From Spirosoma rhododendri (lineage in GTDB: Bacteria; Bacteroidota; Bacteroidia; Cytophagales; Spirosomataceae), in NCBI RefSeq assembly GCF_012849055.1, contig NZ_CP051677.1, positions 372,001 through 436,000 on the forward strand: a stretch of 64,000 nt of DNA, written 5' to 3'. Shown here piece by piece: positions 27,361 through 43,778 of this stretch (position 1 is the first letter of the stretch; each line of letters starts with the position of its first letter). Below the pieces are notes generated by a model. That model was not told where the DNA came from. It worked only from the letters and a program-made list of their open reading frames with translations, and did not search any database. Made by a program: the position numbers and the translations under genes.

Positions 27361-27420
27361 GGTCGAAAGAGGCCGGGGTGAACGGGTGGCCGAACAAAGT
27401 ACCGGCATCGGTACGGGTTT

Positions 27421-27441
27421 GTCAATAACCCTTTCGGGTCA
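27421..27441 (-). promoter_or_regulatory. partial copy of the shared motif, upstream of the response regulator
   Basis: On the minus strand it reads GACCCGAAAGGGTTATTGAC, sharing AAAGGGTTATTG with the site at 30535-30559. It lies about 60-80 bases upstream of the response-regulator start and oriented toward it. It overlaps the end of the kinase gene. Confidence 0.5.
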
Positions 27442-30400
27442 GGCCGAAACCGGGAACGTCAGCCGGAGCGATGTGCCCTGCCCCGGCGCGGAACTGATCT
27501 GTAGCGTACCGCCAAGCTGCCGCGCGCGGGTCTGCATGTTGCGCAGGCCATTGCGGTCGGTATCGGCGTTGGTATCGAAACCCCGGCCGTTGTCCCAGAC
27601 CGTCAGATGCAGCTGCGGGTGCGCGTAGCTGATAAGCAGCCGGGCCTGCGTAGCCTGCGCGTGTTTGACCATGTTGTTGACGGCTTCTTTGGCGATCAGG
27701 TAAAAATCCTGCCGCTTCTCCATCGACAGGCTGAGCCGGTCGAGCCCGTCGGGGATGGCGATTTCGTACTGAATTCCCGACGCTTCAAACAGTTCGGCCG
27801 CGTAGCGATTGATGCGGGCGATCAGGCTGCCCAGCCCGTCGTTGGTTGGGTTGATACTCCACACGATGTCGTCCAGCGCACTGCTTACCTGCCGTGCTTC
27901 GCTCACAATGCGTTCGACCATCGGCTCCGACGGGTGGTTTTTGGGCAGACCACGCTGAATCATTGTCCCCAGAATATCGATACCGCTGATGGACGAACCG
28001 ATTTCGTCGTGCAGGTCGGCCGAGATCCGGTTACGGATGCGCTGCACCCGCAGAATCTGATTGATCCGGTAGCGGTACAGCCCGTACAGCCCCCCGGCAA
28101 ACAGCAGCCCGATCAGTAACCGGAACCACCACGTCTGGTAGTAGGCCGGCAGCACATCGATAGCCAGTTGCGTGACCTGCCGCGACCACTGCCCGGCTGC
28201 ATTGGCGGCTTTCAGGCTCAGCACGTAGCGGCCCGGCGCGAGGTTGGTGTAATAGGCGCGGTGGTGCGTACCGCTGTAATTCCAGCCGGTGTCGAACCCG
28301 TCCAGCCGGTAGGCATACTGACTGGTTGGCATGCGGTCGTAGGTCATGACGCTGAAGCCGACGCTGAACGCATTATCGGCGGGGCTAAGCCGGATGGGTT
28401 TTGCCGCATCGAACGACCGCTCCCGCTCCTGGATACGCAACGAGTTGACAACGACCGGCGGCAGTGATTCCCGGTGCAGCAGCCGGTCGGTGACGATGTA
28501 GTCGAACCCGTTTTGCTGCCCCACAAACAGTTCGCGCCCCCGGTGAATGTAGAGGGCGGCTGTTACGTTGGTACGGCTCAGCCCATCGCCAACCGTGAAC
28601 CGCCTGATCTGCCGGGTGCGGGGGTCGTAAACCTGCAAGCCATCGCACGTACCGATCCAGATACGGCCCGCGCCATCTTCCGCCAGCCGCCGGGTTTCGC
28701 GGTCGTAGAGGCCGTTGCGTGACGTCAGTACGGTGAGCAGCGTGCCGTCGGGCGCACTCTCCGTGACGCTCCCCCAACGCGCTGCCCATACGTGCCCACT
28801 CCGGGCCACGAGCAGCGCGTTGGTCGCCGGATCGTCGAACTGTCGGCGGCTGTGGTGGTCGGCAGGTACGAACCGGTGGCCGGGTTCGGTCACGCAGTAC
28901 GGCCCCCGATACGTAGCCAGCCAGATTTGCCCCGCTTTATCCGCTTTGATATCAGTCAGGAAATTATTGTTGGCGTACATGGCCCGAATCTCGGCCTCCG
29001 GCCAGTAGTGCAGGGGTTGCCCGGTCTGGATGGCCAGCACCCGCAGCCCTTCGTCGTTGTTGCCCACCCACAGCCGCTGCTGCCGGTCGATCAGGCCGTG
29101 ATCCACGAAGGGCACCGAGAACAGCCGCCCCGCCCGCTGTGCCGCCGGTTCGGGTACGAACCGACCGGCGGATGGGTCGTAAACCAGCACACCATCGCCC
29201 CGGTAACTCCAGTTGCGCAGGCCAATCCAGAGCCGCCCGTCGCCGGTTTGCTGCACCCACATCGTTTCGGCCTGCGACTCAGGATACCGCACCAGCGTAA
29301 ACTGGTTAGTCGGCCGGTGCCAGCGAATCAGGCCCGTGTGCGATAACCCCAGCCAGAACGTTTGCCCGGTGGTATCGCGCTGATCGGGGCAGATGACGTT
29401 GACCAGCACGGGCTGCCGAACCAGCGCGGGGGGCAGGGTAACGGGCTCAACGCGGCTATCCTGCGGGTTGTATTTGAGCACGCCATCCGACGTACCGACC
29501 CACAGCATACCGCTGCCGGGGTCGCGAAACAGCGCGTAAACGGCGAATGGATCGGGCCAGGTGACGGGCACCGCTACGAACCGCTGCTGTTCGGGCCGGA
29601 ACGCCAGCAGACCGCTTTCGTCACCCACCCACAGCAGCCGACGCCCGGTTTCATCCTGCCCTTCCGCCACGCAGTTGATACCGGCCGGTCGACCGGTTTG
29701 TGTAAAAAACGTAAACTGACTGGTGTGGGGGTCGAACCGGAGCAGGCCGTGGTCATACGAACCAATCCAGAGAATCCCCTGCGCATCGACACAGCCCCGA
29801 CTCAGGTAAACAGACAGCCGCCGGGCCGGATCGGCACAGTCGGGGCCAAGTACGCAGACGAACCGGTTGGCCCGGCGGTCGAACCGGAACAGGCCGTTAT
29901 CACTCCCGACGACCCAGAGTGTACGCTGGCTGTCTTCCAGAAAATCCTGCACCTTGATACCCCGGTAGGTAGTATGCCGCAACGGATAATGCCGGACTAC
30001 GCCCGTTCGCAGGTCGATCCGGCCAATGCCGCTGGTATCGCCAAACCAGCCTTCGTTGGCCGTACTGCGGTAGAAGCGACCCGTGGCAGTGGGGGTATTC
30101 GGTACGGGCGTCAGGTGCAGCGCGTTGGGTTCGATCCGGCAGATACCCCGTCGGTCGCTGGCCAGCCACATCCGGTTGGCCGAATCAGCCGCCAGCCCCG
30201 TAACGAGGTAGGTTTCGGGTAGCAGGAAGGGGCGAAACGTCGACCCGTCGTAGCGGACCGGACACCGGCGCGTGCCGAACCAGATGAATCCCTGCCGGTC
30301 TTTGGTGATGCTATAGACGGCCCCGCCGGGCAGTCCGTCGGCTTCGGTCAGCTGGTCGAACCACACGTTGGGTGCCTGCGCCCGGAGCCGCCCAACGGAA

Positions 30401-30450
30401 CCGATGTGCAGCACCAGTACCACGACAAGTATAGATAGCCGTTTTCCCAT
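27439..30450 (-). CDS. two-component propeller sensor histidine kinase (HisKA_3)
   Basis: A protein of 1003 residues. Signal peptide (MGKRLSILVVVLVLHIGSVGRLRAQ), then about 12-14 periplasmic Reg_prop repeats (motifs such as GFIWFGTRR, LWIGSYDHGLLRFDP, RIWIGTCDGLQVYDP) that should form two beta-propellers, then a Y_Y_Y domain (about 655-740), one transmembrane helix (WWFRLLIGLLFAGGLYGLY, about 775-793), and a HisKA_3/HATPase_c kinase. Phospho-acceptor His814 lies in ADLHDEIGS; N-box Asn925 in KEAVNNMVKHA; G-boxes DNGRGF and GLRNMQTRARQLGG. It is not a hybrid with its own receiver; the separate response regulator follows. Relatives sense polysaccharide fragments or other envelope signals. It is divergent from a five-gene surface operon, so it probably controls that operon. 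Confidence 0.9.
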   Translation of the reverse strand: MGKRLSILVVVLVLHIGSVGRLRAQAPNVWFDQLTEADGLPGGAVYSITKDRQGFIWFGTRRCPVRYDGSTFRPFLLPETYLVTGLAADSANRMWLASDRRGICRIEPNALHLTPVPNTPTATGRFYRSTANEGWFGDTSGIGRIDLRTGVVRHYPLRHTTYRGIKVQDFLEDSQRTLWVVGSDNGLFRFDRRANRFVCVLGPDCADPARRLSVYLSRGCVDAQGILWIGSYDHGLLRFDPHTSQFTFFTQTGRPAGINCVAEGQDETGRRLLWVGDESGLLAFRPEQQRFVAVPVTWPDPFAVYALFRDPGSGMLWVGTSDGVLKYNPQDSRVEPVTLPPALVRQPVLVNVICPDQRDTTGQTFWLGLSHTGLIRWHRPTNQFTLVRYPESQAETMWVQQTGDGRLWIGLRNWSYRGDGVLVYDPSAGRFVPEPAAQRAGRLFSVPFVDHGLIDRQQRLWVGNNDEGLRVLAIQTGQPLHYWPEAEIRAMYANNNFLTDIKADKAGQIWLATYRGPYCVTEPGHRFVPADHHSRRQFDDPATNALLVARSGHVWAARWGSVTESAPDGTLLTVLTSRNGLYDRETRRLAEDGAGRIWIGTCDGLQVYDPRTRQIRRFTVGDGLSRTNVTAALYIHRGRELFVGQQNGFDYIVTDRLLHRESLPPVVVNSLRIQERERSFDAAKPIRLSPADNAFSVGFSVMTYDRMPTSQYAYRLDGFDTGWNYSGTHHRAYYTNLAPGRYVLSLKAANAAGQWSRQVTQLAIDVLPAYYQTWWFRLLIGLLFAGGLYGLYRYRINQILRVQRIRNRISADLHDEIGSSISGIDILGTMIQRGLPKNHPSEPMVERIVSEARQVSSALDDIVWSINPTNDGLGSLIARINRYAAELFEASGIQYEIAIPDGLDRLSLSMEKRQDFYLIAKEAVNNMVKHAQATQARLLISYAHPQLHLTVWDNGRGFDTNADTDRNGLRNMQTRARQLGGTLQISSAPGQGTSLRLTFPVSA

Positions 30451-30534
30451 ACCCTCGCCCTGATTTAGGTGTAACGCTGTCGGTCAGCAAGTTAGATTCT
30501 TTTACACAAATCCGGGTATGCGTTTACCACTTCC

Positions 30535-30559
30535 TCAATGGGTGTAAAGGGTTATTGCC
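30535..30559 (+). promoter_or_regulatory. shared regulatory motif upstream of the surface operon
   Basis: Reads TCAATGGGTGTAA then AGGGTTATTGCC. It matches 22 of 25 positions at 43049-43073. It lies 55 bases before the ATG of the PKD lipoprotein gene. Additional GGTGTAA and TTACAC half-sites occur at 30468-30474 and 30502-30507 in the same divergent region. It could be a response-regulator site or an alternative-sigma promoter element. Confidence 0.6.
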
Positions 30560-30613
30560 CTCCGTATGGCTACGCGGGAATTTTACAGCCGTAAACTTTC
30601 CTCATCCAATGCC

Positions 30614-31735
30614 ATGAACGTTACCAATCAGGCTTCCCTCCACACGGGTTACATCCTACTTATCGGGCTCTTTATGCTGGTCGGCTGTAAGACCAAAACC
30701 CCGGCTCCGCTCACTCCCAAAGCCAGCTTCCGGGTTGCCAGCCCCAACTGCACCGCCCCCTGCGACCCGGGCATTACCAACCTGTCGCAGTACGCCGTCA
30801 GCTACCGCTGGGACTTCGGCGACGGCGGCACATCGACGCAGGAAACACCCCAGCACACCTACACCAAAGGCGGCAGCTACGCCATCAAACTGACTGTTAC
30901 GGGCGAAGAAAATCAGCAGGCCGACACGACGATTACGGTGTCGCTCCAGAGCCCGACGCCGGTAGCGGCCTTTACCGTGCAGAACAACAACTGCACAGCC
31001 GCCTGCGAAATCGGCTTCACCAACCAGTCGACCTACGGCAACACCTACGCCTGGGACTTTGGCGACGGCGGTACGGCTACCGATGCGAACCCAAAACATA
31101 CCTACACGAAGGGTGGCACGTATACCGTCAAACTCACGGCAAACGGCGATCAGGGTAAGAGTGGCTCAGCCACCCAGACCGTTACGATCAAAACCCCGCC
31201 ACCAGTCGCCAACTTCCTGATTCAGAACGATAACTGCATCGTACCCTGTACCGTCGTACTGCAAAACCAGTCGACCAATGCGACGAGTTATTCGTGGCGC
31301 ATTCTGACGAGCTACCCCAATGCGACGGCCCTCTACCGGACTGCCACGGACGTTAGTCCCAGTCAGCCGTATGACGCCGTATCTCCGTTTGTCAACGGTG
31401 GTCGGCTGGGGTATATGGCTGAGCTAACAGCGACGGGGCCGGGCGGCACGGCGACCGTGAAGAAGGCCATTACCATTCGTCCACCCGTTCCCACGTCCAT
31501 CTTCACGTACCAGACAGTAAACCGGGCCGATGGTACTTACATCCAGCTCATCAATCAGTCGCGCGATGCTACATCCTACAAATGGTACTACGGCTCAGGG
31601 CAGACATCGACGCTGGAAACCCCGCCCGCTTATAAATACATTGGAGCACAGGGGGTTACACTTGACGTCTTCAACGAGACGTCAACCAGTCGGCGTCAGA
31701 CTGTGATTGAATTACCTCGACCTATCCTGAAATGA
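30614..31735 (+). CDS. PKD-repeat lipoprotein, first gene of the surface operon
   Basis: A protein of about 373 residues. The lipoprotein signal peptide ends at LVGC (LIGLFMLVGCKTK), so it should be anchored to a membrane, probably the outer one. Four PKD-type Ig domains follow, each beginning F-x-V/I/Y-Q-x-x-N and a Cys pair; the first two keep the classical YRWDFGDGG / YAWDFGDGG ... HTYTKGG, the last two are degenerate. PKD domains mediate protein or glycan contacts. A longer frame starts at ATG 30566, but ATG 30614 places the lipobox correctly. The stop overlaps the next start by four bases (ATGA), a sign of translational coupling. No catalytic domain. Confidence 0.82.
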   Translation: MNVTNQASLHTGYILLIGLFMLVGCKTKTPAPLTPKASFRVASPNCTAPCDPGITNLSQYAVSYRWDFGDGGTSTQETPQHTYTKGGSYAIKLTVTGEENQQADTTITVSLQSPTPVAAFTVQNNNCTAACEIGFTNQSTYGNTYAWDFGDGGTATDANPKHTYTKGGTYTVKLTANGDQGKSGSATQTVTIKTPPPVANFLIQNDNCIVPCTVVLQNQSTNATSYSWRILTSYPNATALYRTATDVSPSQPYDAVSPFVNGGRLGYMAELTATGPGGTATVKKAITIRPPVPTSIFTYQTVNRADGTYIQLINQSRDATSYKWYYGSGQTSTLETPPAYKYIGAQGVTLDVFNETSTSRRQTVIELPRPILK

Positions 31736-33441
31736 TGCGGCCCGTTCGTCAACTCTACCCGATGAGCCGCATCGGATGTGTGCTGTTTGGGCTGCTGCTG
31801 AGTGCGGTTGCGGGTTACGCGCAGGACCTCGGCAGCCTGGGTAAGCAGAAGCCGTTCGCCATTTCGGGGGCGCTCAACGTCACCGTCGACGGGTACAACA
31901 ACGTGCAGGGCCGCGAACGGCTCGACCCGCTGGCCTGGACAATCAGTGGGTCGCCGACGCTCTCGATCTACGGCATCAGCCTGCCGATCTACGTGCTCAT
32001 CAACAACCAGTCGCGGTCGCTGACGGGGCCGTATCAGCAGTTCGGCATGAGTCCGACTTACAAATGGATTCGGGTTCACGCGGGCTACCGGAACCTGTCG
32101 TTTTCGCCCTACACGCTGGCGGGGCGGCTGTTTCTGGGCGGGGGTATCGAGCTGACGCCGGGCAAATTACGGCTGGCGGCCATGTACGGGCAATTCGAGA
32201 AAGCGCAGCCCGCCGACTCGCTCCGGTTCGTACTAGCCGACGTGCCCCCGCCAGCACCCCGCTTTCAGCGAACAGGCTACGCCGTGAAAGTCGGGTACGG
32301 CACGGCCAACAGCTTTATCGACCTGATTTATTTCCGGGCGAAAGACAACGTCGGTTCGATCCGGTTTCCGGCCAATACGCGCATCGCCCCCGACGAAAAC
32401 GCGGTCGTGGGGCTGTCGTCGCAACTGACGTTTCTGAAGCATTTCACCTGGAGCGCCAACCTCGGCATCAGTGCGTACACCCGCGACATCCGACGGTCGG
32501 AAAATACCGATGTACTCGATCAGGCACCGTGGCTGCGCACGTTCATCGTGCCCCGCACCGGTACGCAGGTCGGCTACGCGGGCGAGAGCAGCCTCAGCTA
32601 TTCATCGACCCTGCTGACGATGCAGCTACAAGTGCGGCAGATTTCAGCGGAGTACCAGTCGATGGGTGCCTACTTTTTCAACAACGACCTGCGTGAAATC
32701 ACCGTCAGCCCGTCGTTGGTGCTGCTGGACGGTAAGGTGCAGGTTAGTGGGAGTTACGGCTACCAGCAGGACAATGTCAGCAACCTGCGCCCGACGACCA
32801 CGACGAGGCAGATCGGGTCGGCCAACGTCACGGTGCAGCCCAATCAGGTGTTCAGTATGCTGATGAGCTATTCGAACTACGGCACCTCGCAGCGAGGCAC
32901 CGAACGCATCATCGACACGCTTAAAATTCAACAGGTCAACCAGAGTGTAATTATCGCTCCGCGCTTGTTTTTCAACGGCGAAGCGGTGCAGCACACGCTG
33001 TCGGCCTTTGTCAGTTACCAGAACGCCAACGATGTCAACACCGTCTCGCAGGTCCGCACGGATTTCAACAACATCCTGGCGAATCTGAACTACGCGTATA
33101 CCCGCCCGAAAGAACGGCTGTCGCTGACGCCGGGGCTGTCGGCCATCCGCAACTTCGTGCCGGGCTACAACACGCAGTCGTTCGGCGCAACGGTGATTGC
33201 CAGTAAGGGCTTCGACAAGGGCAAACTCAACACGTCGCTAAGCGGCAACTATTACCAGAATTTTTATGAGGGCGCGGCCAACGGTTATACCCTCCGCACC
33301 CGGCTGAGTGGCCGTTACCGCCCCGCCGGTACGCACGAGTTCAGCCTGAGCGTCGCCAGCACCATCAACCAGGACAAGGTCGTACAGAGCCGCAACTTCA
33401 CCGAACTCTTCGGGCAGGTCGGCTACGGTCTATCGTTTTAA
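31732..33441 (+). CDS. outer-membrane beta-barrel protein of the surface operon
   Basis: A protein of 569 residues. Signal peptide (MSRIGCVLFGLLLSAVAGYAQ from the inner Met11; the ATG at 31732 overlaps the preceding stop), then alternating beta-strand patterns throughout and an aromatic C-terminus (QVGYGLSF), as in outer-membrane barrels. It contains many Tyr/Arg-rich strands and no plug or TonB box, so it is more like a porin or export channel than a TonB receptor. I do not recognise a named family. Its fixed position between the PKD lipoprotein and the 2054-residue protein suggests it anchors or exports one of them. Confidence 0.75.
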   Translation: MMRPVRQLYPMSRIGCVLFGLLLSAVAGYAQDLGSLGKQKPFAISGALNVTVDGYNNVQGRERLDPLAWTISGSPTLSIYGISLPIYVLINNQSRSLTGPYQQFGMSPTYKWIRVHAGYRNLSFSPYTLAGRLFLGGGIELTPGKLRLAAMYGQFEKAQPADSLRFVLADVPPPAPRFQRTGYAVKVGYGTANSFIDLIYFRAKDNVGSIRFPANTRIAPDENAVVGLSSQLTFLKHFTWSANLGISAYTRDIRRSENTDVLDQAPWLRTFIVPRTGTQVGYAGESSLSYSSTLLTMQLQVRQISAEYQSMGAYFFNNDLREITVSPSLVLLDGKVQVSGSYGYQQDNVSNLRPTTTTRQIGSANVTVQPNQVFSMLMSYSNYGTSQRGTERIIDTLKIQQVNQSVIIAPRLFFNGEAVQHTLSAFVSYQNANDVNTVSQVRTDFNNILANLNYAYTRPKERLSLTPGLSAIRNFVPGYNTQSFGATVIASKGFDKGKLNTSLSGNYYQNFYEGAANGYTLRTRLSGRYRPAGTHEFSLSVASTINQDKVVQSRNFTELFGQVGYGLSF

Positions 33442-33453
33442 CCCATCCTCACC

Positions 33454-36400
33454 ATGAAGCCGTTACTACTCTTTTGCGCCCTGCTGATCCTGCGCCCGCT
33501 ATACGCGCAGGTCACGGTGCAGACACTGATACCGCCCCCCTACAGCCCCTACCTGTACGACTATCAGGAACAGTTTGCCGACCGTAACGCCATCGTACTG
33601 ACCAACACCTCGCGGCAGGCCGTAACGCTGATGCTGCGGGGTGAACTGACCGGCCGAACCAACGGCGTCCGGGTCTATACCTCGCCTAACTACCGGCCAG
33701 CTCGCCCCATCGAACTCCAGCCGGGGCAGTCGCAACGCTTTACGCTGGCCGAAGGCAATCAGGATTATCTGGACCGCAAAAACCTCGAAGTCGCCGGGGT
33801 CGACAATGCGACGCAGACGCAGATTCTGACGACGGGTCTGCTGCCGCCGGGTAGTTACGACCTCTGCCTGCTGGCGTACCGCTACGATAACGGCCAACCC
33901 GTCGGGACGCCGTACCGGGGCTGCACCGTGCTGAACATCACGTACCTCGAACCGCCCCGGCTCGTTCAGCCAACCTGCGGGCGCGACCTGCTCATCCGGC
34001 CCAACGAACCCAATCAGACGCTGTTTAGCTGGACCCCGCCCGTCGGCAATATCGGCGGAGCGCGGCTGACGTACGACTTTTACCTGGTGAAGGTGCCGCC
34101 CGGCCAGAACCCCAACGACGCTATCAACAACGCCATCGACCGGCGCGTGGGCAACCCCTTTATCGAGCGCGACCTGACGACGACCTCGTTCAACTACGGC
34201 GTGGCCGAACCACCCCTGACCGAAGGCGACTACGCGTGGCGGGTCATCGCCCGCGACCCCGACGGACGCACGGTTTTTCAGAATCAGGGCCGCAGCAACT
34301 ACTGCACGTTCACGACCCGCAACGCAGCCGCCCCGCCCGTAGCGCCCGCAGCAGCGGTACTCGCCCAGCAGCCCGCCAAACCCAAACTACCCACCGGGCC
34401 GATGCGTACGATGATGGCCGTCGCGCCGGGCGTCAGCCCCTGCGTCGACGTGACAGCCCCCGCCGACAACGCACCCGTGGCGGGCAATTACCAGAATCAG
34501 ACCGTCAAAATCGGCAAATTCGACCTGACCATCGACGATATCGCGGCCGACGGTGGCGGCTATACCGGTAAAGGGCGCATCCGCTGGAACGGCGTACCGG
34601 TACGGGTGTCGTTCACCACGATTCAGATCAACGCTGCCAAACAGGTAATTGCAGGCTACGCCAACGGCATCGACGACGCTTTTCGTGAACCGGGTGTCGA
34701 TCTGGCATCGGGTAACCTGAGCGATTTGAGTAACCTGACTGGTCCGGCCGTCAAGACCTACGTCGACCATCTGAAAAACAACCTCTACGATCAGGGTAAA
34801 GCCGCCGTGGCGGTGCCACTGCCGCTGGGTTACGATGCGGGTAGCGGGCTGATCGGTATCAACTACATGCGATTTACGCCCACCGGTGCCGATATGGGGC
34901 TGGTATTCAACATGGAGATGCCCGAGGCCAATTCGTACCTCGCGCTGGCGGGCGTCGGCATCTGCATGGACCCCGACCGGCTTATCCCAAACAACGCACT
35001 GCTTTACCTGCTGAAAGACTTTACCGTACCGTTTACCCCGCTGACGTTCAAAACGGGCAACCTCGCCCCCGCCAACCCGACCGGCACCTTCGCCGAACTG
35101 ACCGCTGCCGAGGGGCTGAAACGCATTCACGGCGAACTGGCGCTGAACCTCGGCAGTAGTATGCTACAACTGGACGATGGCAACGGCAACGTAGTACCCG
35201 GCGACGTGACGGCGACGCTCACCACCGACTTTACAAAATGGGCCGACTGGGTAGCCGACGTTAAACTGCCGCCCGCCTTTACGCTGGCTCCGCTGGCGGG
35301 TTTTACGCTTAAAGGAGTCAGCGTGCAGTACGACCACTCCGACCTGCGCAACTCGCCCACCTTTGCGCCACCCACCGAATACACCGGCGAACGTGGCCCG
35401 ACGTTTCAGGGGTTGTACCTCAACGAATTGCAGGTGTTGCTTCCCAAATCCTTCGCCGGGCAAAACGGCAACCGTACGGGATTTGCGGCTAAAAACTGCC
35501 TGTTTGCCAGTGGTGAATTTACGGGGCGACTAGCGCCGACAACCAATCCGCTGCTCGACTACAACGTGGGTTCGATGGGCAACTGGGGCTTCTCGATCGA
35601 CGACTTCGAGATTCTGTTCGTGCAGAACCGCTTCGAGCGGGGTGGCATGAACGGCAAAATCCAGTTTCCGATCAGCACCGATTATTTTACGTATACGACA
35701 ACCCTGCGCGACAACCTGAAAAACCTTCAGTTCGTGGTGCAGCCGAAACCGGGCGGCTACACAATTCCACTCTGGGCCGCCGACATGAGCCTGGAGGAAA
35801 CCTCACATATCCTGGTGGGTCTGCAAAACAGCAACCCGGTGATGGACATGAGGTTAAACGGCAAAATTCAGATCAACACCGCGAAAGTATCTACCGCAGT
35901 AGCTCTGGCGCTGCCCAAACTGTTCTTCGAGAATTTCACCGTCTCGAATCAGAACAGTCCGGGCGCGGCCAGTGGCGGGGGCGTTTACGTCAATCCGGGT
36001 AGCTGGAAACTGGTCGGCGGTATTTTCAGGGATACGCCCTCAGACGCCCCCGTGCCGGGTGCGCGCAGCGGTGGCCCGTTTGCCCCCGACGCGCCCGAAC
36101 CGGGCTGGGTACCCGGCAACGACGGCGGGCTGGCGGGCTTCCCCATCGAGATTGCTCCACCCAAAGCCGTGGCCAATGCCAACGGGATGGGCGTCGAACT
36201 GGGGGCGTATGTGTCGCTGGGCGAGGCATCGGCCAACATCATGCAGGCTAATGGCTTCGTGCAGATTCTGGGGAAGATTACGCTGGACCCGGTTAAAAAG
36301 CGGCCCACGCCGTCGTTTGGCGGGATCCACCCGACCCGCTTCGGCATCAAAGGCAGCTTCGGCGGAGGTGAAGTCAGTGCGGCTATCGATTTGTATTATG

Positions 36401-39400
36401 ACGATGCTACTTACGGCAACGGCTTCCGGGGCGTAGGACAGGTAAAGATTCCAGCATTGGCAACGGTCGAAGCGACGGTGCAGTTTGGCAAGGTCAGCGG
36501 ATTCTACTACGCCTACGCCGATGCCAGCGTTGATCTGGACGCGGGCGGCATTCCGGTCGCCCCACCGACCCCGCTGCTACTGAGCGGATTCAAAGGCGGC
36601 TTTTACTACAACATGACCCCGGCCAACTGGGTCACCCCGACGGCGATTGCGAACAAAACAGCACCGCAGAAACCCACACCCGGCTACACCAATTCGGGCG
36701 TGAGTTACCGGCCCCAGCGGGGTGGCTGGGGCATCAAGGCTGGCGTTTATCTGGCCCTCGCCGACAAGCACCTGCTAACCTCGCTGGTTGAAGTGGAAGC
36801 CAGTTTCAACGGCACGGCTTTAAGTAAGTTCAGCCTACGCGGCAAGGCCAACGTGCTCGACACCGACGGCAACCTGAACACCCCCGATAATGCGATGGTG
36901 CGAGCCGATGCCATATTCGAGCATGACGTGGCCCAGAAAAGCTACGTATTCGGGACCGACGTCAGCGGAAAATTCCTGACTACCACCTTCACCATTCCGA
37001 TTCGGGCCCATTTCGACCCACGTCATTGGCACGTCAAGGTAGGGTTCCCGGAAAACCCCCGGATGAGTGCTACCCTGATCGACTTCGACAAAGGGCCGGT
37101 AAAAGCGTATCTGGGAGCCAGTGCCTACGTCGCCTTTGGTAACGACCTGTCGGGTATCCCTCCCTTGCCTGAGGATGTAGCGAAGTTCCTGGTAACGGGT
37201 GAAAACCCCACGACCGCCGACGCTGTACAGCAACAGCGGCAGAGTGAGTTTGATGCCGTTAATTCATCGGGGACCGGGAATCCGCTCGGTGGCAAGTTTC
37301 AGGTTCTGCTGGGAGCCGAGCTGAAGGGGAGTCTGCGCGTCAACGTGCTGGTGCTGGCCGTTCACGCCGACGCTATAGTAGGTTTCGACGCGGCTATATC
37401 CATGGATCAGACATGCGGAGGCAGTGGCACCCCGCCCCCAGGGCTGAACGGCTGGTACGGCACGGCACAGTTATACGCCTATCTGAACGGCGGCATCGAC
37501 ATCCACGTCGACCTGTTTGGCATTGCCGACGGCGATTTTCAACTGTGTGAGCTGACGGCTGGGGCACTCTTCCAGGGCGGTGTTCCTAACCCAACCTGGG
37601 GCGATGGGCGGGTCAGGGCCAGAGGCTCGGTACTGGGCGGACTGGTCAGTTTCGACGCCAGTGCCCACGTGGCGTTCGGTGAAAAATGCCAGCCCGTTTA
37701 TACCGGCGAGCCATTGTCGCTAACAATCATTCAGGAACTGCGCCCGACGGCCGGGGCGACGAACGTCGCGACCGATCAGACGCTGTCGGCGGTGTTCAAC
37801 GTCAGCATGAATCAGGAATACACCGTTCACCTGCCCGATAAATCGACCCGCACGTACCGGTTTAGACTAGGTGCGTACAGCCTCACCTACAAAGACGCGG
37901 GTGGGCGGACGCAGCCCTTCACCGGGCTGGCGTCACCAGTCTGGGCCAACAACAATCAATTACTGCTGCTGAAGATGAACAGCGGGCAACTCCCCAGCCG
38001 ACGACCACACACGTTTTCGGTAACGGCCACCATCGAGCAGCAGCAACCCAACGGCTCGTTCGTCTACCTGTTCAACGGAGCGAATCAGCGCGTCGAAACG
38101 AAAACTGTCTCGTTTACCACCGGCGACCAGCCCGACGAAATCCGGTTCGAAAATATTGCCTATCAGTATCCACTCAGCGGCCAGTTGTATTGCCTGAAAC
38201 GGCAGGTACCGCAGGGGCTTGTGGCGGGCCCGTTGCCCAACGAAGCCCTGACTAAACCCGGCTACCGCTACGAAGCGGTGTTTGTGCCGAAAGAGCCGGG
38301 GGCGTCGCTGCGGGTACCATTCACCTACCAGACGGGCAATGCCGATCATCCGAGTCAGGTCGTATTCGCCCTGCCGCTGGGTTTACAGAACGAAAAAACG
38401 TATCGGCTCGAACTCCACCGCATCAGCCCCATTTCAACCATGTTACTATCGGGCAATCGCTCCAGCTCGGCGGGCGTGCAGGAAGGAATCCGGCAGGCGG
38501 TGTCGAATTCGAGCGGTATTCAGGGCCGGGCCGTTATCCGGCAGAATACCCTGGTCGGGCAGGTCGGCGGCAGTAACATCAGTTTCGATAAAACCCTGTA
38601 TAGCACGGCCTTCCGCACAAGTCGTTACAATACGTTCGCCGAGAAACTGGCCGCGCTACAGTTTGCACCGACCAGCTACATCGGCAGTACCAGTTTCGCC
38701 AACTACTTTACGTTTGACCTGATACCGGCCGGAAAAGTCGAGAATTTCGAGGATACCGAATTGTTTGGCTACAACTCGGCGCTGCGTTTCGTCCCCCCCA
38801 TGATCGACCCCAGCCCGCTGTCGCCGGCCGATGAAAGCTACCCACACGAAAGCTGGGTGTACCGAAACGTGTACCAGCCCCTGCAAGTACTGACCCGCTA
38901 CAGTGTCCGGCCGCAGTTCACGCTGTTTTCCGAGATGAACTCCCGCAACTGGCTGCTCGATTACCCGATGGCGGCCATGCGGTCGAAGCGGGGAGCCTAC
39001 GTGCTGTCGTTCGGTCAGCGACCGATTACATCCGTACTGGGCCGGGAGCCCGTGCTGGTTGCCACTGGCAAAGGGGCCGTAGCGGCCGCGCCGATCACGC
39101 CAACTGGTGAACGGCTCATCAGACCCACGACGGCAGTGCTGAACCTGTTTGTCCTGAATCCGGAACCGACGCGGGGCTACAAATTCTACGTGCAGCGCGA
39201 CCGCATCAGCTACTTCGACTGGCAGGCCGTCGAGCAGTTTGGTACCGCCCTGTACCGGGCCCTCCAGCAGGAACTGAAGTTGGAGGACCAGTTGCGCCAG
39301 GCAATGCCAAAGGGGACGGGGTATAGACTGAGCTTCAAAAAATTCCTGAAAAACATCGACGTCTGGACCAGCAGCCCGACACTCGTGCTGTCGGCGGTGT

Positions 39401-39618
39401 ACGGACGCATGAACGACCTACCCAACGATTTGATCAACCGCTACCCGGTACCGACGGGACCTTCGTTCGGAACGGGCCGCGATTTTGTGCCACGGGCGAA
39501 CGGCTCGCGGGGTGCCGTACGGCTGATGTACACGCCTTATCCCACGGCCGCCCGCTGGGAAGGCCGGAAAGAATTCGTGTTCAAAACGCCCACCTCATCT
39601 GCTATTTATCTCAAATAA
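33454..39618 (+). CDS. 2054-residue giant envelope protein, core of the surface operon
   Basis: Signal peptide MKPLLLFCALLILRPLYA. Residues about 19-175 (opening TLIPPPYSPYLYDYQEQF, later SYDLCLLAYRY) recall the TANFOR-type N-domain of large Bacteroidota surface proteins; this is from memory. A fibronectin-III-like domain follows (about 185-290, LFSWTPPVGN ... YAWRVIARD). Residues about 330-1400 are beta-rich with repeated Gly/Asn-Ala patterns and no recognised domain. Near residue 1410-1560 a Big_5-type Ig domain is seen (RPTAGATNVATDQTLSAVF). The C-terminus shows no T9SS sorting signal, so it may stay in the periplasm or be bound by partners rather than by T9SS. Gaps to both neighbours are 7-12 bases, so it is strictly co-transcribed. 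Function unknown. Confidence 0.8.
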   Translation: MKPLLLFCALLILRPLYAQVTVQTLIPPPYSPYLYDYQEQFADRNAIVLTNTSRQAVTLMLRGELTGRTNGVRVYTSPNYRPARPIELQPGQSQRFTLAEGNQDYLDRKNLEVAGVDNATQTQILTTGLLPPGSYDLCLLAYRYDNGQPVGTPYRGCTVLNITYLEPPRLVQPTCGRDLLIRPNEPNQTLFSWTPPVGNIGGARLTYDFYLVKVPPGQNPNDAINNAIDRRVGNPFIERDLTTTSFNYGVAEPPLTEGDYAWRVIARDPDGRTVFQNQGRSNYCTFTTRNAAAPPVAPAAAVLAQQPAKPKLPTGPMRTMMAVAPGVSPCVDVTAPADNAPVAGNYQNQTVKIGKFDLTIDDIAADGGGYTGKGRIRWNGVPVRVSFTTIQINAAKQVIAGYANGIDDAFREPGVDLASGNLSDLSNLTGPAVKTYVDHLKNNLYDQGKAAVAVPLPLGYDAGSGLIGINYMRFTPTGADMGLVFNMEMPEANSYLALAGVGICMDPDRLIPNNALLYLLKDFTVPFTPLTFKTGNLAPANPTGTFAELTAAEGLKRIHGELALNLGSSMLQLDDGNGNVVPGDVTATLTTDFTKWADWVADVKLPPAFTLAPLAGFTLKGVSVQYDHSDLRNSPTFAPPTEYTGERGPTFQGLYLNELQVLLPKSFAGQNGNRTGFAAKNCLFASGEFTGRLAPTTNPLLDYNVGSMGNWGFSIDDFEILFVQNRFERGGMNGKIQFPISTDYFTYTTTLRDNLKNLQFVVQPKPGGYTIPLWAADMSLEETSHILVGLQNSNPVMDMRLNGKIQINTAKVSTAVALALPKLFFENFTVSNQNSPGAASGGGVYVNPGSWKLVGGIFRDTPSDAPVPGARSGGPFAPDAPEPGWVPGNDGGLAGFPIEIAPPKAVANANGMGVELGAYVSLGEASANIMQANGFVQILGKITLDPVKKRPTPSFGGIHPTRFGIKGSFGGGEVSAAIDLYYDDATYGNGFRGVGQVKIPALATVEATVQFGKVSGFYYAYADASVDLDAGGIPVAPPTPLLLSGFKGGFYYNMTPANWVTPTAIANKTAPQKPTPGYTNSGVSYRPQRGGWGIKAGVYLALADKHLLTSLVEVEASFNGTALSKFSLRGKANVLDTDGNLNTPDNAMVRADAIFEHDVAQKSYVFGTDVSGKFLTTTFTIPIRAHFDPRHWHVKVGFPENPRMSATLIDFDKGPVKAYLGASAYVAFGNDLSGIPPLPEDVAKFLVTGENPTTADAVQQQRQSEFDAVNSSGTGNPLGGKFQVLLGAELKGSLRVNVLVLAVHADAIVGFDAAISMDQTCGGSGTPPPGLNGWYGTAQLYAYLNGGIDIHVDLFGIADGDFQLCELTAGALFQGGVPNPTWGDGRVRARGSVLGGLVSFDASAHVAFGEKCQPVYTGEPLSLTIIQELRPTAGATNVATDQTLSAVFNVSMNQEYTVHLPDKSTRTYRFRLGAYSLTYKDAGGRTQPFTGLASPVWANNNQLLLLKMNSGQLPSRRPHTFSVTATIEQQQPNGSFVYLFNGANQRVETKTVSFTTGDQPDEIRFENIAYQYPLSGQLYCLKRQVPQGLVAGPLPNEALTKPGYRYEAVFVPKEPGASLRVPFTYQTGNADHPSQVVFALPLGLQNEKTYRLELHRISPISTMLLSGNRSSSAGVQEGIRQAVSNSSGIQGRAVIRQNTLVGQVGGSNISFDKTLYSTAFRTSRYNTFAEKLAALQFAPTSYIGSTSFANYFTFDLIPAGKVENFEDTELFGYNSALRFVPPMIDPSPLSPADESYPHESWVYRNVYQPLQVLTRYSVRPQFTLFSEMNSRNWLLDYPMAAMRSKRGAYVLSFGQRPITSVLGREPVLVATGKGAVAAAPITPTGERLIRPTTAVLNLFVLNPEPTRGYKFYVQRDRISYFDWQAVEQFGTALYRALQQELKLEDQLRQAMPKGTGYRLSFKKFLKNIDVWTSSPTLVLSAVYGRMNDLPNDLINRYPVPTGPSFGTGRDFVPRANGSRGAVRLMYTPYPTAARWEGRKEFVFKTPTSSAIYLK

Positions 39619-39625
39619 CCCGACC

Positions 39626-41836
39626 ATGAACGTTGTCAAGATCGTTTTTCGGCTTAGCCTGCTAATCGCCCTACTGGCTTCAGTAAATCTATACGCCCAG
39701 CGAAACCGCACCCCGCCTGCCCCCGCTCCGGCACCATCCACGACTACCCCTGCCGATACGGGGCAGGCACCGGCCCGGCTCGTGCTGCTGGCCCGCAACT
39801 ACGGCGACTCGGTAGTGCTGCGGTGGTCGCCTAACCGGGCGGGGCACTTTCTGGCCGGTAGCCAGACGGGCTACTGGGTCGAACGAGTGGAATTGAGCAA
39901 GCGATTCCCCGACGGAAAAATCACGCTGCTCAGCACCAGCCCCGTCCGCCCTTGGACACTCGACGAAGCCCGGCAGCGCATCAAAGCCGGCGACCGGTTT
40001 CCGGCTATCGGCCTGCAAATGCTATATGGAAAAGGGTACACCAAAACGTTTTCGCCCGATGCCGCATCGATCATCAACCTCAGCGAAGAGCAGAACAACC
40101 GCTTTGCCGTGGCCCTGATGGCCGCCGACTATTCGCCCCGTGCCGCCGATGCGCTGGGCCTGCGCTGGGTCGACCGGCAACCCCGGCAGGCCGACGCGGT
40201 GTACGTCTACCGCATCTACCCGGCGCGGTCGTCGGCCATTACGGGCAACCTGACCGATACAGTGGCCGTACTGGTCGACCCCAACAGTCGGTTTCGGGCT
40301 GTTGCGCCCCTGCTCGAAGCCATTCAGTCCGGCGACAGTGCCATTTCGCTGACCTGGCACCGGCACAGTACACAGGGCGCGTTCTCTGGCTTCTACGTCG
40401 AGCGGAGCACCGACGGCAAAACGTTCAAACGCCTGACCGCGCAGCCCTACATCCAGTCGCAACCCGACGCCGACATACAGCAGCGCGACACCGTCCGCTT
40501 CCAGACCGACAGCCTGGGCCGATCGCTGATCTCGTACAGCGATTCGGTGGTCAACTACCGCCGGTTTTACTACCGCGTTATCGGCATCGACGCCTTTGGC
40601 GACCTAAGTCCGGCGTCGGAAGTTGTGACGGGGATGGCCCGCGACCTGACTCCACCCCTACCGCCCGCCAACCTCCGCACGCAGGTCATCGATAATAAGC
40701 AGATTCGGGTGCAGTGGAACCGCGCCCGGCTTACCACGCCCGACATGGCCGGGTACGTAATCGGGCGGGGTTCAGCGGTCAACGGGCCGTTCGAGTCGAT
40801 TTCACCCACGGTACTGTCAGCTAGCACGCTGGAGTTTCTCGACACAAAGCCCGACACGTACAGCAATTTCTACACGGTCGGTGCAGTCGATACGGCGGGG
40901 AACATTGCGTATGCCCCCGCCGTCGTCGGTATCATCGCCGACCTGCTGCCGCCCGACAAACCCACCGGACTAAGCGCGCAGACCGACACCAGCGGCATCG
41001 TTCAGCTGACGTGGCCGCTGGGGCAGGACGACGACATCGTGGCGTATAAGGTGTACCGGTCCTACGAGCAGCAAAACGATTTCTACCGGCAGCTTACCCC
41101 GCTGGGTATCGCCGACACGACCTTCGCCGACACACTGCCCCACCCGATGCTGAACAAGCAGGTGTTCTACAAAATCGTCGCCATCGACCGCACGGGTAAC
41201 CACTCGCTGTTTTCAGCCGCGCTCCCCGTTGCCGTGCCCGACCGGATGCCACCGACCGCGCCCGTTATCCGGTCGGTGGTGGTCGATGCGGGGGGCGTTA
41301 CGCTGATGGTGCTGCCCAGTTCGAGCGTCGACGTGGTCGGGCATCGGCTCTACCGGCGCGACGGCGACGCACCCTGGACGCTGCTCCGCCAACTACCCGG
41401 CCGCGCCGACGGACTACTGACCCTGCGCGACACGAGCTTCCGGGCGCAGCCGGGCTTTGCCGGTAAAACTTACACCTACGCCCTGACGGCCATTGACGAC
41501 GCGAAGCTGGAGTCAGAGCGATCGTTTGCGGTGCCGGTGCAGCCCGGTGCGGGGGTAGCCCAGCCGGTGCGGAACATACAGGGCCGCTACGACGCCAATC
41601 GCCAGGCGGTGGTGCTGAACTGGGAGTTTCCGACCCTTGCCGAACCGTATCATTTCGTGGTGTACCGGTCGCTCAACGGCGAAGGGCTGAGCATGTACCG
41701 GGCCGTCGACGGGCAGCAGCGCAGCTTTCAGGACAACGCCACGGCTTCGACCGGCCGCTACCAGTACGCCGTTCGGGTGCAGTACCATCAGCGCAGCGGC
41801 TCGGCACTTAGCCAGCCCGTAAACATTTCACGTTAA
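39626..41836 (+). CDS. multi-fibronectin-III secreted protein
   Basis: A protein of 736 residues with signal peptide (FRLSLLIALLASVNLYAQ), a Pro/Thr-rich linker (TPPAPAPAPSTTTPADTG) and about five fibronectin type III-like domains. Landmarks are SVVLRWSPNRAGHF, ISLTWHRHSTQGAFSGFYVE, IRVQWNRARLTTPDMAGYVI, VQLTWPLGQDDDIVAYKVYR and VVLNWEFPTLAEPYHFVVYR, spaced about 90-150 residues apart. No T9SS signal or catalytic motif is visible. It starts seven bases after the 2054-residue protein and probably forms an extracytoplasmic scaffold with it. Confidence 0.85.
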   Translation: MNVVKIVFRLSLLIALLASVNLYAQRNRTPPAPAPAPSTTTPADTGQAPARLVLLARNYGDSVVLRWSPNRAGHFLAGSQTGYWVERVELSKRFPDGKITLLSTSPVRPWTLDEARQRIKAGDRFPAIGLQMLYGKGYTKTFSPDAASIINLSEEQNNRFAVALMAADYSPRAADALGLRWVDRQPRQADAVYVYRIYPARSSAITGNLTDTVAVLVDPNSRFRAVAPLLEAIQSGDSAISLTWHRHSTQGAFSGFYVERSTDGKTFKRLTAQPYIQSQPDADIQQRDTVRFQTDSLGRSLISYSDSVVNYRRFYYRVIGIDAFGDLSPASEVVTGMARDLTPPLPPANLRTQVIDNKQIRVQWNRARLTTPDMAGYVIGRGSAVNGPFESISPTVLSASTLEFLDTKPDTYSNFYTVGAVDTAGNIAYAPAVVGIIADLLPPDKPTGLSAQTDTSGIVQLTWPLGQDDDIVAYKVYRSYEQQNDFYRQLTPLGIADTTFADTLPHPMLNKQVFYKIVAIDRTGNHSLFSAALPVAVPDRMPPTAPVIRSVVVDAGGVTLMVLPSSSVDVVGHRLYRRDGDAPWTLLRQLPGRADGLLTLRDTSFRAQPGFAGKTYTYALTAIDDAKLESERSFAVPVQPGAGVAQPVRNIQGRYDANRQAVVLNWEFPTLAEPYHFVVYRSLNGEGLSMYRAVDGQQRSFQDNATASTGRYQYAVRVQYHQRSGSALSQPVNISR

Positions 41837-41849
41837 GTAAGTTACAAGC

Positions 41850-42950
41850 ATGAAGCCACACATTTTCGCCTATCTTCCCCCTGCACTGCTGCTGACCGGC
41901 CTGCTGTTCCGCTGTCAGCCAGCCACAACCGACTCACCCATGAACACCCCCGCCAGCAAGCCCGGCTTCTACGTCGACGGCCGCTTTCTCCACGACCCCT
42001 GCGGTACCAAGATCACGCTGCGGGGCATCAACAAAATGAACGTCTGGACCGACCGGGCCGGGGCTTCGTTTGCCGAAATCGCCAAAACCGGGGCCAACTG
42101 CGTTCGCATTGTCTGGCTAGCCACCGACGAAGATACCAAGCAGCCCACCAAAGCTGCTGATCTCGACAACCTGATTACGAAATGCGTGGCCCAGCAGATG
42201 ATTCCGATAGTCGAAGTGCACGACGCAACCGGCGACTGGAGCAAACTCGGCGCAATGGTCGACTACTGGAAACGGCCCGACATCGTAGCTGTTATCAAAA
42301 AACACGAACGGTACCTGCTCGTCAATATCGCCAACGAATGCGGTGACGATCAGGTAAAGGACGATGAATTCATTGCGGGCTATAGTCAGGCGGTGCAGCA
42401 GCTTCGGCAGGCGGGCATCCACACCCCGCTGGTGATCGACGGCACCGATTTCGGCAAGAATCTCGAACAACTGGTCAAGGTTGGTCCACCAGTGATACAG
42501 GCTGATCCCGACCGGAACCTGCTGTTTTCCGTGCATACCTACTGGCCCGCTACCGATGGTGCTACACCAGCGTTCATCAGGCAGCAGTTTCAGTCGGCCG
42601 TCGACGCGGGGTTACCGTTTATCGTGGGTGAATTTGCGGCTTACGGGGCTTACGCGGGTATAAACCCACAAACTGGCAAACCGGAAAGTAGCTGCGGGCC
42701 GAAGGGGCGAATCAACTACCAGACCATTGTGTCGGAAGCGCAGCGGCTCGACATCGGGTGGCTGATATGGGAGTGGGGGCCGGGAAACGACGTTGACGAT
42801 CATCTCTGTGAAATCATGGACCTGACCACCAACAGCACCTTTGCGACGCTGAAAGGCTGGGGCAAAGAAGTCGTGCTGGCCGGTGACAACAGCATCCAGA
42901 AAACGGCTGTTCGTTCGCCCTTCCTGCTCAACGGCATGACGTGTAAATAG
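41850..42950 (+). CDS. GH5-like (cellulase/mannanase fold) lipoprotein, last gene of the operon
   Basis: A protein of 366 residues. The N-terminus ends in LLTGLLFRCQP, a slightly non-canonical lipobox, so it is probably a lipoprotein. The catalytic (beta/alpha)8 domain has RGINKMNVWTDRAG at the entry, VNIANECGDD with Glu163 as likely acid/base, HTYWPATDG, and FIVGEFAAYG with Glu261 as likely nucleophile, in the clan A arrangement of GH5. The sequence resembles endo-beta-mannanases of GH5 more than cellulases, but the specificity is inferred. It begins 13 bases after the Fn3 gene, tying a polysaccharide hydrolase to the surface operon. Confidence 0.85.
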   Translation: MKPHIFAYLPPALLLTGLLFRCQPATTDSPMNTPASKPGFYVDGRFLHDPCGTKITLRGINKMNVWTDRAGASFAEIAKTGANCVRIVWLATDEDTKQPTKAADLDNLITKCVAQQMIPIVEVHDATGDWSKLGAMVDYWKRPDIVAVIKKHERYLLVNIANECGDDQVKDDEFIAGYSQAVQQLRQAGIHTPLVIDGTDFGKNLEQLVKVGPPVIQADPDRNLLFSVHTYWPATDGATPAFIRQQFQSAVDAGLPFIVGEFAAYGAYAGINPQTGKPESSCGPKGRINYQTIVSEAQRLDIGWLIWEWGPGNDVDDHLCEIMDLTTNSTFATLKGWGKEVVLAGDNSIQKTAVRSPFLLNGMTCK

Positions 42951-42952
42951 AC

Positions 42953-43045
42953 CGACGGTTTACAGTTCACGGTATCCGGTATCCGGTTGTCAACAGCTCG
43001 TAAAACCGAAAACTGTAAACTGTAAACCAGCTACCGTAAACCGTT
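42953..43045. repeat. degenerate inverted repeat (family E, copy 2)
   Basis: GGTTTACAGTT on the left mirrors AACTGTAAACC on the right, with further CGGTTTAC/GTAAACCG outer matches. It lies just after the GH5-like gene and just before the shared motif at 43049. Confidence 0.55.
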
Positions 43046-43048
43046 GGC

Positions 43049-43073
43049 TCAGTGGGTGTAATGGGTTATGGAC
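43049..43073 (+). promoter_or_regulatory. second copy of the shared regulatory motif
   Basis: Reads TCAGTGGGTGTAA then TGGGTTATGGAC. Differs from the 30535-30559 site at only a few positions and keeps TGGGTGTAA and GGGTTAT. It is about 75 bases upstream of ATG 43147, in the same orientation relative to the gene. Confidence 0.6.
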
Positions 43074-43146
43074 AGGGACAACGCGATTGCGGAGATTTGA
43101 CCAGTCAAGTCAATGTGATCGCTTCACCCTTATCCACATACTACCC

Positions 43147-43650
43147 ATGCTTATCAACACAGTACGCCGTACACTGCTCCTGCTGACCTTCGTCGTTGGG
43201 CTTTACAGCTGCAAGAAAAACGATACCCAACCCGACGGCGGTTCATCGACCGGTAGCGTCAAGGTAACGCAGAACGGAACGGTAATCACCCAGTTTTCCG
43301 TCGATGAGGTAACGGTCGTGGGCGGTGGCGGCTACTCAATCGTCATCGCCAGTACCGATACCCGGCACTCCATCGTGCTGAGCATAGAGGGGCAATCGGC
43401 GGGTACGTACCCGTTCATCAAACCCCACGAAACGCTGACCAGCGGCCGGGCCAATTTCCTCTACCAGAGTTATGACCTGCCGCCCACCTACGCGGGTACC
43501 GATGGCGTATTGATTCCCAATGCCGGTCAGGTTCAACTAACAACGGCCACGTCGACGCGGTGCGCGGGTTCATTTTCGGGGGCGGGTCAGAACGATAAAG
43601 ACGGTAAAACCTACGCCATCGAAGGCACATTCGACGCCCCCGTTCGCTGA
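43147..43650 (+). CDS. hypothetical lipoprotein under the shared motif
   Basis: A protein of 167 residues with a lipoprotein signal peptide (LLLLTFVVGLYSCKKND, Cys after LYS). The mature part is beta-rich with Gly/Ser/Thr stretches and no family I recognise; the segment TSTRCAGSFSGAGQNDKDGK recalls small Bacteroidota lipoproteins of unknown role. I used ATG 43147 because it makes the lipobox correct; the frame is open 60 bases further. The upstream motif at 43049 links it to the two-component regulon, so it may be an accessory surface component of the same system. Confidence 0.7.
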   Translation: MLINTVRRTLLLLTFVVGLYSCKKNDTQPDGGSSTGSVKVTQNGTVITQFSVDEVTVVGGGGYSIVIASTDTRHSIVLSIEGQSAGTYPFIKPHETLTSGRANFLYQSYDLPPTYAGTDGVLIPNAGQVQLTTATSTRCAGSFSGAGQNDKDGKTYAIEGTFDAPVR

Positions 43651-43682
43651 CCAGACACGACAAGCCGCTTGGCTGCACATCA

Positions 43683-43770
43683 TCTTTCTGTCCACACCAT
43701 TCAATCTTTCTATCCACACCATTCAATCTTTCTATCCACATCATTCAATCTTTCTATCCACATCATTCAA
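43683..43770 (+). repeat. 22-bp tandem repeat, four copies, abutting a start codon
   Basis: Unit TCTTTCTATCCACACCAT plus TCAA, four copies with few substitutions, then a partial unit. The array ends nine bases before the ATG at 43779, so a change in copy number would change the distance between promoter and start codon. Confidence 0.9.
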
Positions 43771-43778
43771 TCTTATCC

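Follow-up and report, generated by a model that had tools for sequence, protein, structure and literature searches.

Probable two-component control of a surface-protein operon in Spirosoma rhododendri through a GGGT-repeat operator, found before type VI secretion genes in relatives

We analyzed a 64,000-nucleotide stretch of the Spirosoma rhododendri genome (contig NZ_CP051677.1, positions 372,001 to 436,000; hereafter the window), in which genes for a sensor histidine kinase and a response regulator (RR) lie beside a five-gene operon for surface proteins. Judged by its sequence, the RR is best read as a NarL/LuxR-type two-component regulator paired with a Reg_prop-type sensor kinase, and the pair very probably activates three promoters, including that of the RR itself, through an operator built on a GGGT repeat. 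The clear regulon members in the window genome are the RR gene, the five-gene operon and a lipoprotein gene at 43147. In relatives this signal precedes the genes of a contact-dependent injection machine, which suggests one switch that may have been rewired between surface systems. The two genes and the sites in front of the three promoters are as follows (coordinates in the window).

26725 to 27360, minus strand: response regulator with Response_reg and GerE (LuxR-type) domains (PF00072, 2.1e-24; PF00196, 1.2e-13)
27439 to 30450, minus strand: sensor histidine kinase of 1003 aa with a Reg_prop propeller, Y_Y_Y, HisKA_3 and HATPase_c
27425 to 27441, minus strand: variant operator of the RR's own promoter, TGACCCGAAAGGGTTAT, with the -7 box TTTG at 27395-27398
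30524 to 30538, plus strand: conserved box upstream of operator 1, TTACCACTTCCTCAA, from an alignment of 14 promoters
30539 to 30555, plus strand: operator 1, TGGGTGTAAAGGGTTAT, with the -7 box GAATTTTA, its TTTA at 30582-30585
43038 to 43052, plus strand: conserved box upstream of operator 2, AAACCGTTGGCTCAG, from the same alignment
43053 to 43069, plus strand: operator 2, TGGGTGTAATGGGTTAT, with the -7 box TTTG at 43096-43099

A first-pass annotation of this DNA had proposed that a LuxR-type regulator binds a motif shared by two 25-bp sites and thereby co-regulates the operon and the additional lipoprotein. Both sites lie on the plus strand where it had placed them, at 30535-30559 (TCAATGGGTGTAAAGGGTTATTGCC) and 43049-43073 (TCAGTGGGTGTAATGGGTTATGGAC); they agree at 21 of 25 positions (differing at 4, 14, 22 and 24), one fewer than it had counted. 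The distance of 55 bases from the first site to the gene start at 30614 was correct, and that from the second to 43147 is ~74 bases instead of 75. The partial copy upstream of the RR start is present at 27425-27441 on the minus strand, and all three sites do point toward the gene that each precedes. When the window was searched with the 17-mer TGGGTGTAAWGGGTTAT at up to 3 mismatches, 2 matches were found against 0.19 expected, a count reached by 2 of 100 shuffles. Across the 6,049,537-base genome the 17-mer occurs exactly twice, both times inside the window, with no copies at 1-2 mismatches and 13 at 3 (a reversed-pattern control gave 11 matches in all). The genome-wide scan that the annotation had recommended thus finds a motif that is not randomly scattered, with two exact 17-mers and three exact copies of the promoter pattern described below. 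The extra GGTGTAA/TTACAC half-sites reported beside the kinase did not hold up: the window contains 41 copies of GGGTGTAA at ≤1 mismatch where 48.9 would be expected, and an alignment of five relatives shows no conservation of these letters in the intergenic regions on the kinase side.

The operator stands at a fixed distance from a promoter element. TTT[GA] lies exactly 26 bp past GGGTTAT in 20/20 promoters (14 target and 6 RR promoters), against a background of TTT at 47/1840 positions, and an upstream box, ACCGNTTNNCTCAR, usually accompanies the operator. In the window genome the combined pattern AAWGGGTTAT-N26-TTTR has three exact matches, namely the promoters of the RR gene, the five-gene operon and the lipoprotein, and two further places with 1 mismatch. 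The primary-sigma -7 box of Bacteroidota is TTTG, according to PMC7366714 and PMC6847099; with the -7 numbering given in the latter, the operator would occupy about -51 to -35. The promoter alignment contains no conserved TTTG of its own in the -33 region.

We then compared 222 genomes of the family (Spirosomataceae relatives; G000 and others, cited by G number). A scan with TGGGTGTAAWGGGTTAT at ≤1 mismatch, made without reference to the kinase, returned 55 matches in 42 genomes, 14 of them in G000, G025, G016, G018, G034 and G191. Kinases at E ≤1e-150 were present in 9/222 genomes, six of them close (about 63% identity or more) and three at 35-38%, and the genomes carrying the six close orthologs are the same six that carry the strong promoters (6/222). 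Outside the window, kinases adjoining site-led genes are 62-64% identical to the window kinase, and RRs next to linked kinases 74-80% identical to the window RR; in G018 the RR (71%) is unlinked from the kinase and still keeps its site. A 66-position profile built from the 14 aligned sites recovered, at E <1e-10, the same 14 sites in 6/222 genomes; matches of any kind at E ≤0.01 occurred in 12/222, the next-best beyond the six genomes being partial (6.6e-5). The motif is kept upstream of orthologous as well as non-orthologous operons where the same two-component pair is present, a comparison that the first-pass annotation had also called for. The RR's variant site reads TGACCYRAAAGGGTTAT in five of the six close genomes and TGACGCAAAAGGGTTAT in G191. 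Three more sites occur in G018: one precedes the gene of a lipocalin-like lipoprotein, one that of a lipocalin-like protein divergent from the RR, and one a short open reading frame (ORF) of unsure start. By eye, the variant RR operator of G018 (L155:8310-8350) forms a perfect 12-bp inverted repeat around TCAG. Exact matches in G114, G130 (two) and G213 were rejected as members, as none has TTTR at +26 and their surroundings differ: inside a 968-aa ORF in G213, and in a repeated stretch beside a 157-aa ORF in G114 and G130. Near matches in G003, G004 and G005, inside ORFs or on the wrong strand of one, were likewise set aside.

The operator also follows the regulator's own recognition helix. 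RRs were gathered by protein similarity alone (E ≤1e-58; 59 places in 55/222 genomes), and the region upstream of each RR gene was tested for the core AAAGGGTTAT at ≤2 mismatches with TTTR at +26, on 30 places with loci and then on the other 29 (G146 is cut off by a contig end). RRs with ETVRRH in the recognition helix had the site before their gene in 24/24 readable cases, as opposed to 2/34 of those without it, and for each upstream region no more than 3/200 shuffles reached the threshold. On a tree of the first 30 RRs, with G146 counted as lacking a site, the site label changes three times; shuffled labels changed 7.2 times on average and were never as low (0/500). Sites with TTTG at +26 were also found on the target side in G076, G077, G079, G157 and G153, with a second copy 94-97 bp upstream in all of these except G079. 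At the target promoters of loci from more distant genera (L303, L306, L310, L313) the two operator copies, 94-97 bp apart, are separated by ~nine helical turns. No convincing target-side site was seen within the stretch fetched for G162, G134, G140 and G146. Co-inheritance with the kinase and RR, together with this tracking of the helix, supports the proposal that the LuxR-type regulator would co-regulate the five-gene operon and the extra lipoprotein through this motif.

Several observations weigh against this interpretation. The reversed control of the 222-genome scan gave 30 matches against 55, so many single matches in that scan are chance, and the reversed control of AAWGGGTTAT-N26-TTTR gave 6 matches at ≤1 mismatch, as compared with 5 for the pattern itself. 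The profile was built from the very sites that it recovers, which leaves the kinase-blind scan as the fair evidence, and the orthologs are not independent of one another. Two RRs without ETVRRH, those of G197 and G201 (helix SLDTVKKHL), pass the site test with 2 mismatches each; the G198 RR, with the same helix, has a site with 3 mismatches. The G074 RR (STDTVRRHL), a near clade member, has no upstream site in this test, and the G146 RR lies beside type VI secretion system (T6SS) genes, yet the sole nearby match points the wrong way. In front of their own genes, SLDTVKKHL RRs (L331, L338, L343) have AAAxGGGTACTT with TTTG at +26, a shifted form of the element and perhaps a sister specificity.

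The mechanism we propose begins with the sensor kinase, which would phosphorylate the RR. The RR would bind TGGGTGWAAWGGGTTAT, two GGGT half-sites in direct repeat 9 bp apart, and, bound there and presumably phosphorylated, would act as a class-II-type activator given that the operator lies directly before the -7 box, recruiting primary-sigma polymerase to the operon and to the 43147 lipoprotein gene. It would also act on its own gene through the variant site, which suggests autoregulation at another affinity. The RR joins a receiver to a GerE helix-turn-helix, and its gene adjoins that of the cognate kinase, whose HATPase_c scored 8.6e-11 and whose HisKA_3 match (23.3 bits) falls just under the cut-off of 24. 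We set the RR start at ATG 27360 because the start of the longer ORF, 27408, is upstream of the presumed transcription start. The pair resembles NarL/FixJ RRs and HisKA_3 kinases (NarL, UhpA-UhpB) in its receiver and GerE domains, the adjoining HisKA_3-type kinase and the activator-like operator position; it differs from them in reaching no NCBIfam equivalog cut-off and in having as operator a GGGT direct repeat of 9-bp period followed by the Bacteroidota -7 box. Reg_prop (propeller) sensors of Bacteroidota include the hybrid two-component systems of polysaccharide loci. The window kinase shares with these its propeller and Y_Y_Y sensor domains and a glycoside hydrolase target gene, but the window pair is non-hybrid, and its receiver and DNA-binding domain reside in a separate protein of LuxR rather than AraC type.

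The most serious alternative, though an unlikely one, accepts that the sites belong to the RR and holds that it represses, or switches with phosphorylation, instead of activating. Position alone is no proof of activation, and the variant site at the RR's own promoter may be a repressed one; however, the site stops short of the -7 box, where activators typically sit, and the -33 region has no conserved TTTG. It is quite improbable that another transcription factor, co-inherited with the two-component system, binds the site. A linked third factor would be compatible with the correlation with the RR, but the site persists in G018 where RR and kinase are unlinked, it follows the RR's own recognition helix across genera, and no shared third regulator was seen in the gene tables of the loci, in which most genes lacked identification.

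A conserved element at a constant distance from the start site would also be expected of a sigma-factor promoter, and the first-pass annotation had raised an extracytoplasmic function (ECF) sigma element as its alternative, which here would be the -35 element of an ECF factor encoded elsewhere. The -35 and -10 elements of ECF promoters are spaced more closely than 26 bp. What was found is not such a pair at its usual spacing without a primary-sigma -7 box, but a primary-sigma TTT[GA] 26 bp off in all 20 promoters, too far for an ECF pair and a better fit to an activator site; the site, moreover, tracks the RR's recognition helix and the presence of the kinase. Geometry and tracking together make the ECF explanation very improbable. 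As the two window sites are only 12.5 kb apart, one might suppose that they match by chance or arose by a recent local duplication and have no function. We give this almost no credence: 0.19 matches were expected in the window, other species repeat both the element and its spacing, and sites 1 and 2 each resemble a different class of relatives' sites downstream of the core. Activation by the RR thus stays the preferred reading, and the genes it would control in the window are listed below.

30614 to 31735, plus strand: PKD lipoprotein, first gene of the five-gene operon (PF18911, 1.4e-35; lipobox by eye)
31732 to 33441, plus strand: outer-membrane beta-barrel of 569 aa, from its predicted structure
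33454 to 39618, plus strand: 2054-aa protein with weak N-terminal TANFOR similarity (TIGR02542, 23.7 bits; cut-off 67) and an unshared C-terminus
39626 to 41836, plus strand: FN3-domain protein (PF00041, 8.4e-07) with a signal peptide at its N-terminus
41850 to 42950, plus strand: GH5 (cellulase-family) lipoprotein, last gene of the operon (PF00150, 1.9e-19; lipobox)
43147 to 43650, plus strand: 167-aa lipoprotein, weakly like Riean_0653/DUF6252 (NF052634, 28.5 bits, cut-off 57; PF19765, 19.4 bits, cut-off 27.2)

The five operon genes follow one another in tight order, and the 167-aa lipoprotein comes after them. The barrel protein matched no Pfam family; its AlphaFold model (mean pLDDT 80.4) consists almost entirely of strands and, among the matches listed, resembled only generic barrels in the PDB (TM ≤0.48 to the query). 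The C-terminus of the 2054-aa protein is not shared with 12 aligned homologs and matched no toxin family, and the gene next to it encodes the FN3 protein. The GH5 lipoprotein is the target common to four relatives, with 68-73% identical orthologs behind the same operator.

In these relatives (G016, G018, G034 and G191) the kinase gene and the divergent GH5 lipoprotein gene have one site between them, and a second leads a Bacteroidota T6SS cluster. Firm assignments in the cluster are TssC (PF17541, 740 bits), TssD (PF17642, four proteins), TssE (PF04965) and a ClpV-type ATPase; TssF, TssG, TssK and VgrG matched more weakly, TssG and TssK far below the NCBIfam cut-offs, and the putative TssB, which matched no family, is named by its place. 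The clusters of the remaining relatives were matched to the annotated one by blastp. With its TssC, TssD, TssE/F/G/K-, ClpV- and VgrG-like genes the cluster resembles the Bacteroidota system T6SSiii, as described in PMC10781749. The T6SS of the window genome is not a target: no exact site precedes its own TssC gene (C1:4621448, 55% identical). The T6SS was rejected as an obligatory partner, since eight genus members with a close T6SS (TssC 79-89%; G001, G003, G008, G011, G015, G017, G021, G022) have neither kinase nor strong sites. Proteins matching the window protein P8 (43779-44759) at 31-35% are encoded next to T6SS clusters in G003, G022 and G017, and nothing further supports a link.

In the letters past the core, site 1 of the window is like the relatives' GH5-class sites (TTATTG, then TTTTAC in some) and site 2 like their second-operon class (TTATGGAC, ATTTGA). 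Site 2 is found just past GH5 in the window, G016, G018 and G034, and in G191 it is 18 kb away, beyond the T6SS genes. On the simplest reading, both promoters would be ancestral and the genes behind them would have changed, the PKD-barrel-giant-FN3 genes having come between site 1 and GH5 and the lipoprotein occupying the place of the relatives' T6SS operon. More tentatively, and with rather less than even confidence, we propose one switch with a near-frozen operator that has been rewired within the family, commanding T6SSiii in G016, G018, G034 and G191 and an operon for an outer-membrane protein (OMP), a TANFOR-like and an FN3 protein in the window, G025 and Flectobacillus; GH5 would accompany these systems in the window and in the four relatives with a T6SS. 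The propeller would then sense something outside the cell, perhaps a glycan or a neighbouring cell, and the OMP-giant operon would serve as a functional counterpart of the T6SS.

Barrel-TANFOR-like-FN3 operons occur across Bacteroidota (L046-L065 included), the barrel gene preceding the giant gene in 16 of the 20 annotated among 38 loci; many of these operons lie close to LuxR-type RRs that have a different helix type and no such operator. The N-termini of the giant proteins matched TANFOR in 8/10 cases at 18-37 bits, none above the cut-off of 67, and in 2/10 not at all. TANFOR neighbourhoods with PKD and Fn3 genes are described by Jana et al. 2020 (PMC7073777). The window protein shares with the polymorphic toxins treated there its length, its weak N-terminal similarity and its PKD and Fn3 neighbours; it differs in falling far under the family cut-off (23.7 vs 67 bits), and no toxin or immunity family was found. 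An RR at least 42% identical lies upstream in 15/32 of the genus loci, and most of these RRs have an SMGTVRTHI helix and lack this operator. The window genome has a second barrel operon (barrel C1:4510665) near such an SMGTVRTHI-type RR (C1:4521303), with no exact site in front. In G025 the contig ends inside the giant gene, and only the first site is readable. Three Flectobacillus loci fetched by the barrel protein (L115, L116, L124) have TGTGTGTAAAGGGTTAT or TGTGTAAAAAGGGTTA[TC] before the OMP-TANFOR-like operon, with 1, 3 and 4 mismatches at which 0, 0.05 and 0.75 matches are expected in mononucleotide shuffles; L124 alone is weak. These sites lack TTTR at +26; by eye, L115 and L116 show a weaker GGGCAT copy with TTTG at +26, ~96 bp downstream. 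Of two other Bacteroidota barrel loci, L151 has one 3-mismatch RR-type match and L123 none within 4 mismatches. Profile R1 matched none of these five loci, the Flectobacillus sites having been found by pattern and eye.

NarL/LuxR-type two-component regulation, the -7 box, T6SSiii and TANFOR proteins are all of known kinds. Among the papers listed in literature searches, none was seen to describe this regulon, nor to report that a two-component system controls T6SSiii in Spirosoma-like bacteria. To our knowledge, operators of Bacteroidota RRs are rarely known; here a regulator, its recognition helix, its operator and a clear three-promoter regulon can be read from sequence alone. With the same operator before the T6SS of relatives, the system offers a testable way into the control of T6SSiii in Bacteroidota and of OMP-TANFOR-like operons, which have been little studied; it would also be a clean example of a regulon rewired while its operator stayed constant.

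Some neighbouring features were also recorded. Just 5' of operator 2, 42951-43048 forms an imperfect palindrome (RNA fold z -3.5), and matches to parts of it occur elsewhere in the genome, at 27 places; it is a repetitive extragenic palindrome (REP)-like intergenic repeat, and possibly a terminator between the GH5 gene and operator 2. A tandem array of 4.2 copies of a 22-bp unit (43682-43774) separates the 167-aa lipoprotein gene from the next gene. Farther on, 46327-49905 encodes a reprolysin-type metallopeptidase of 1192 aa; its Por_Secre_tail match is sub-threshold, and it may be a substrate of type IX secretion.

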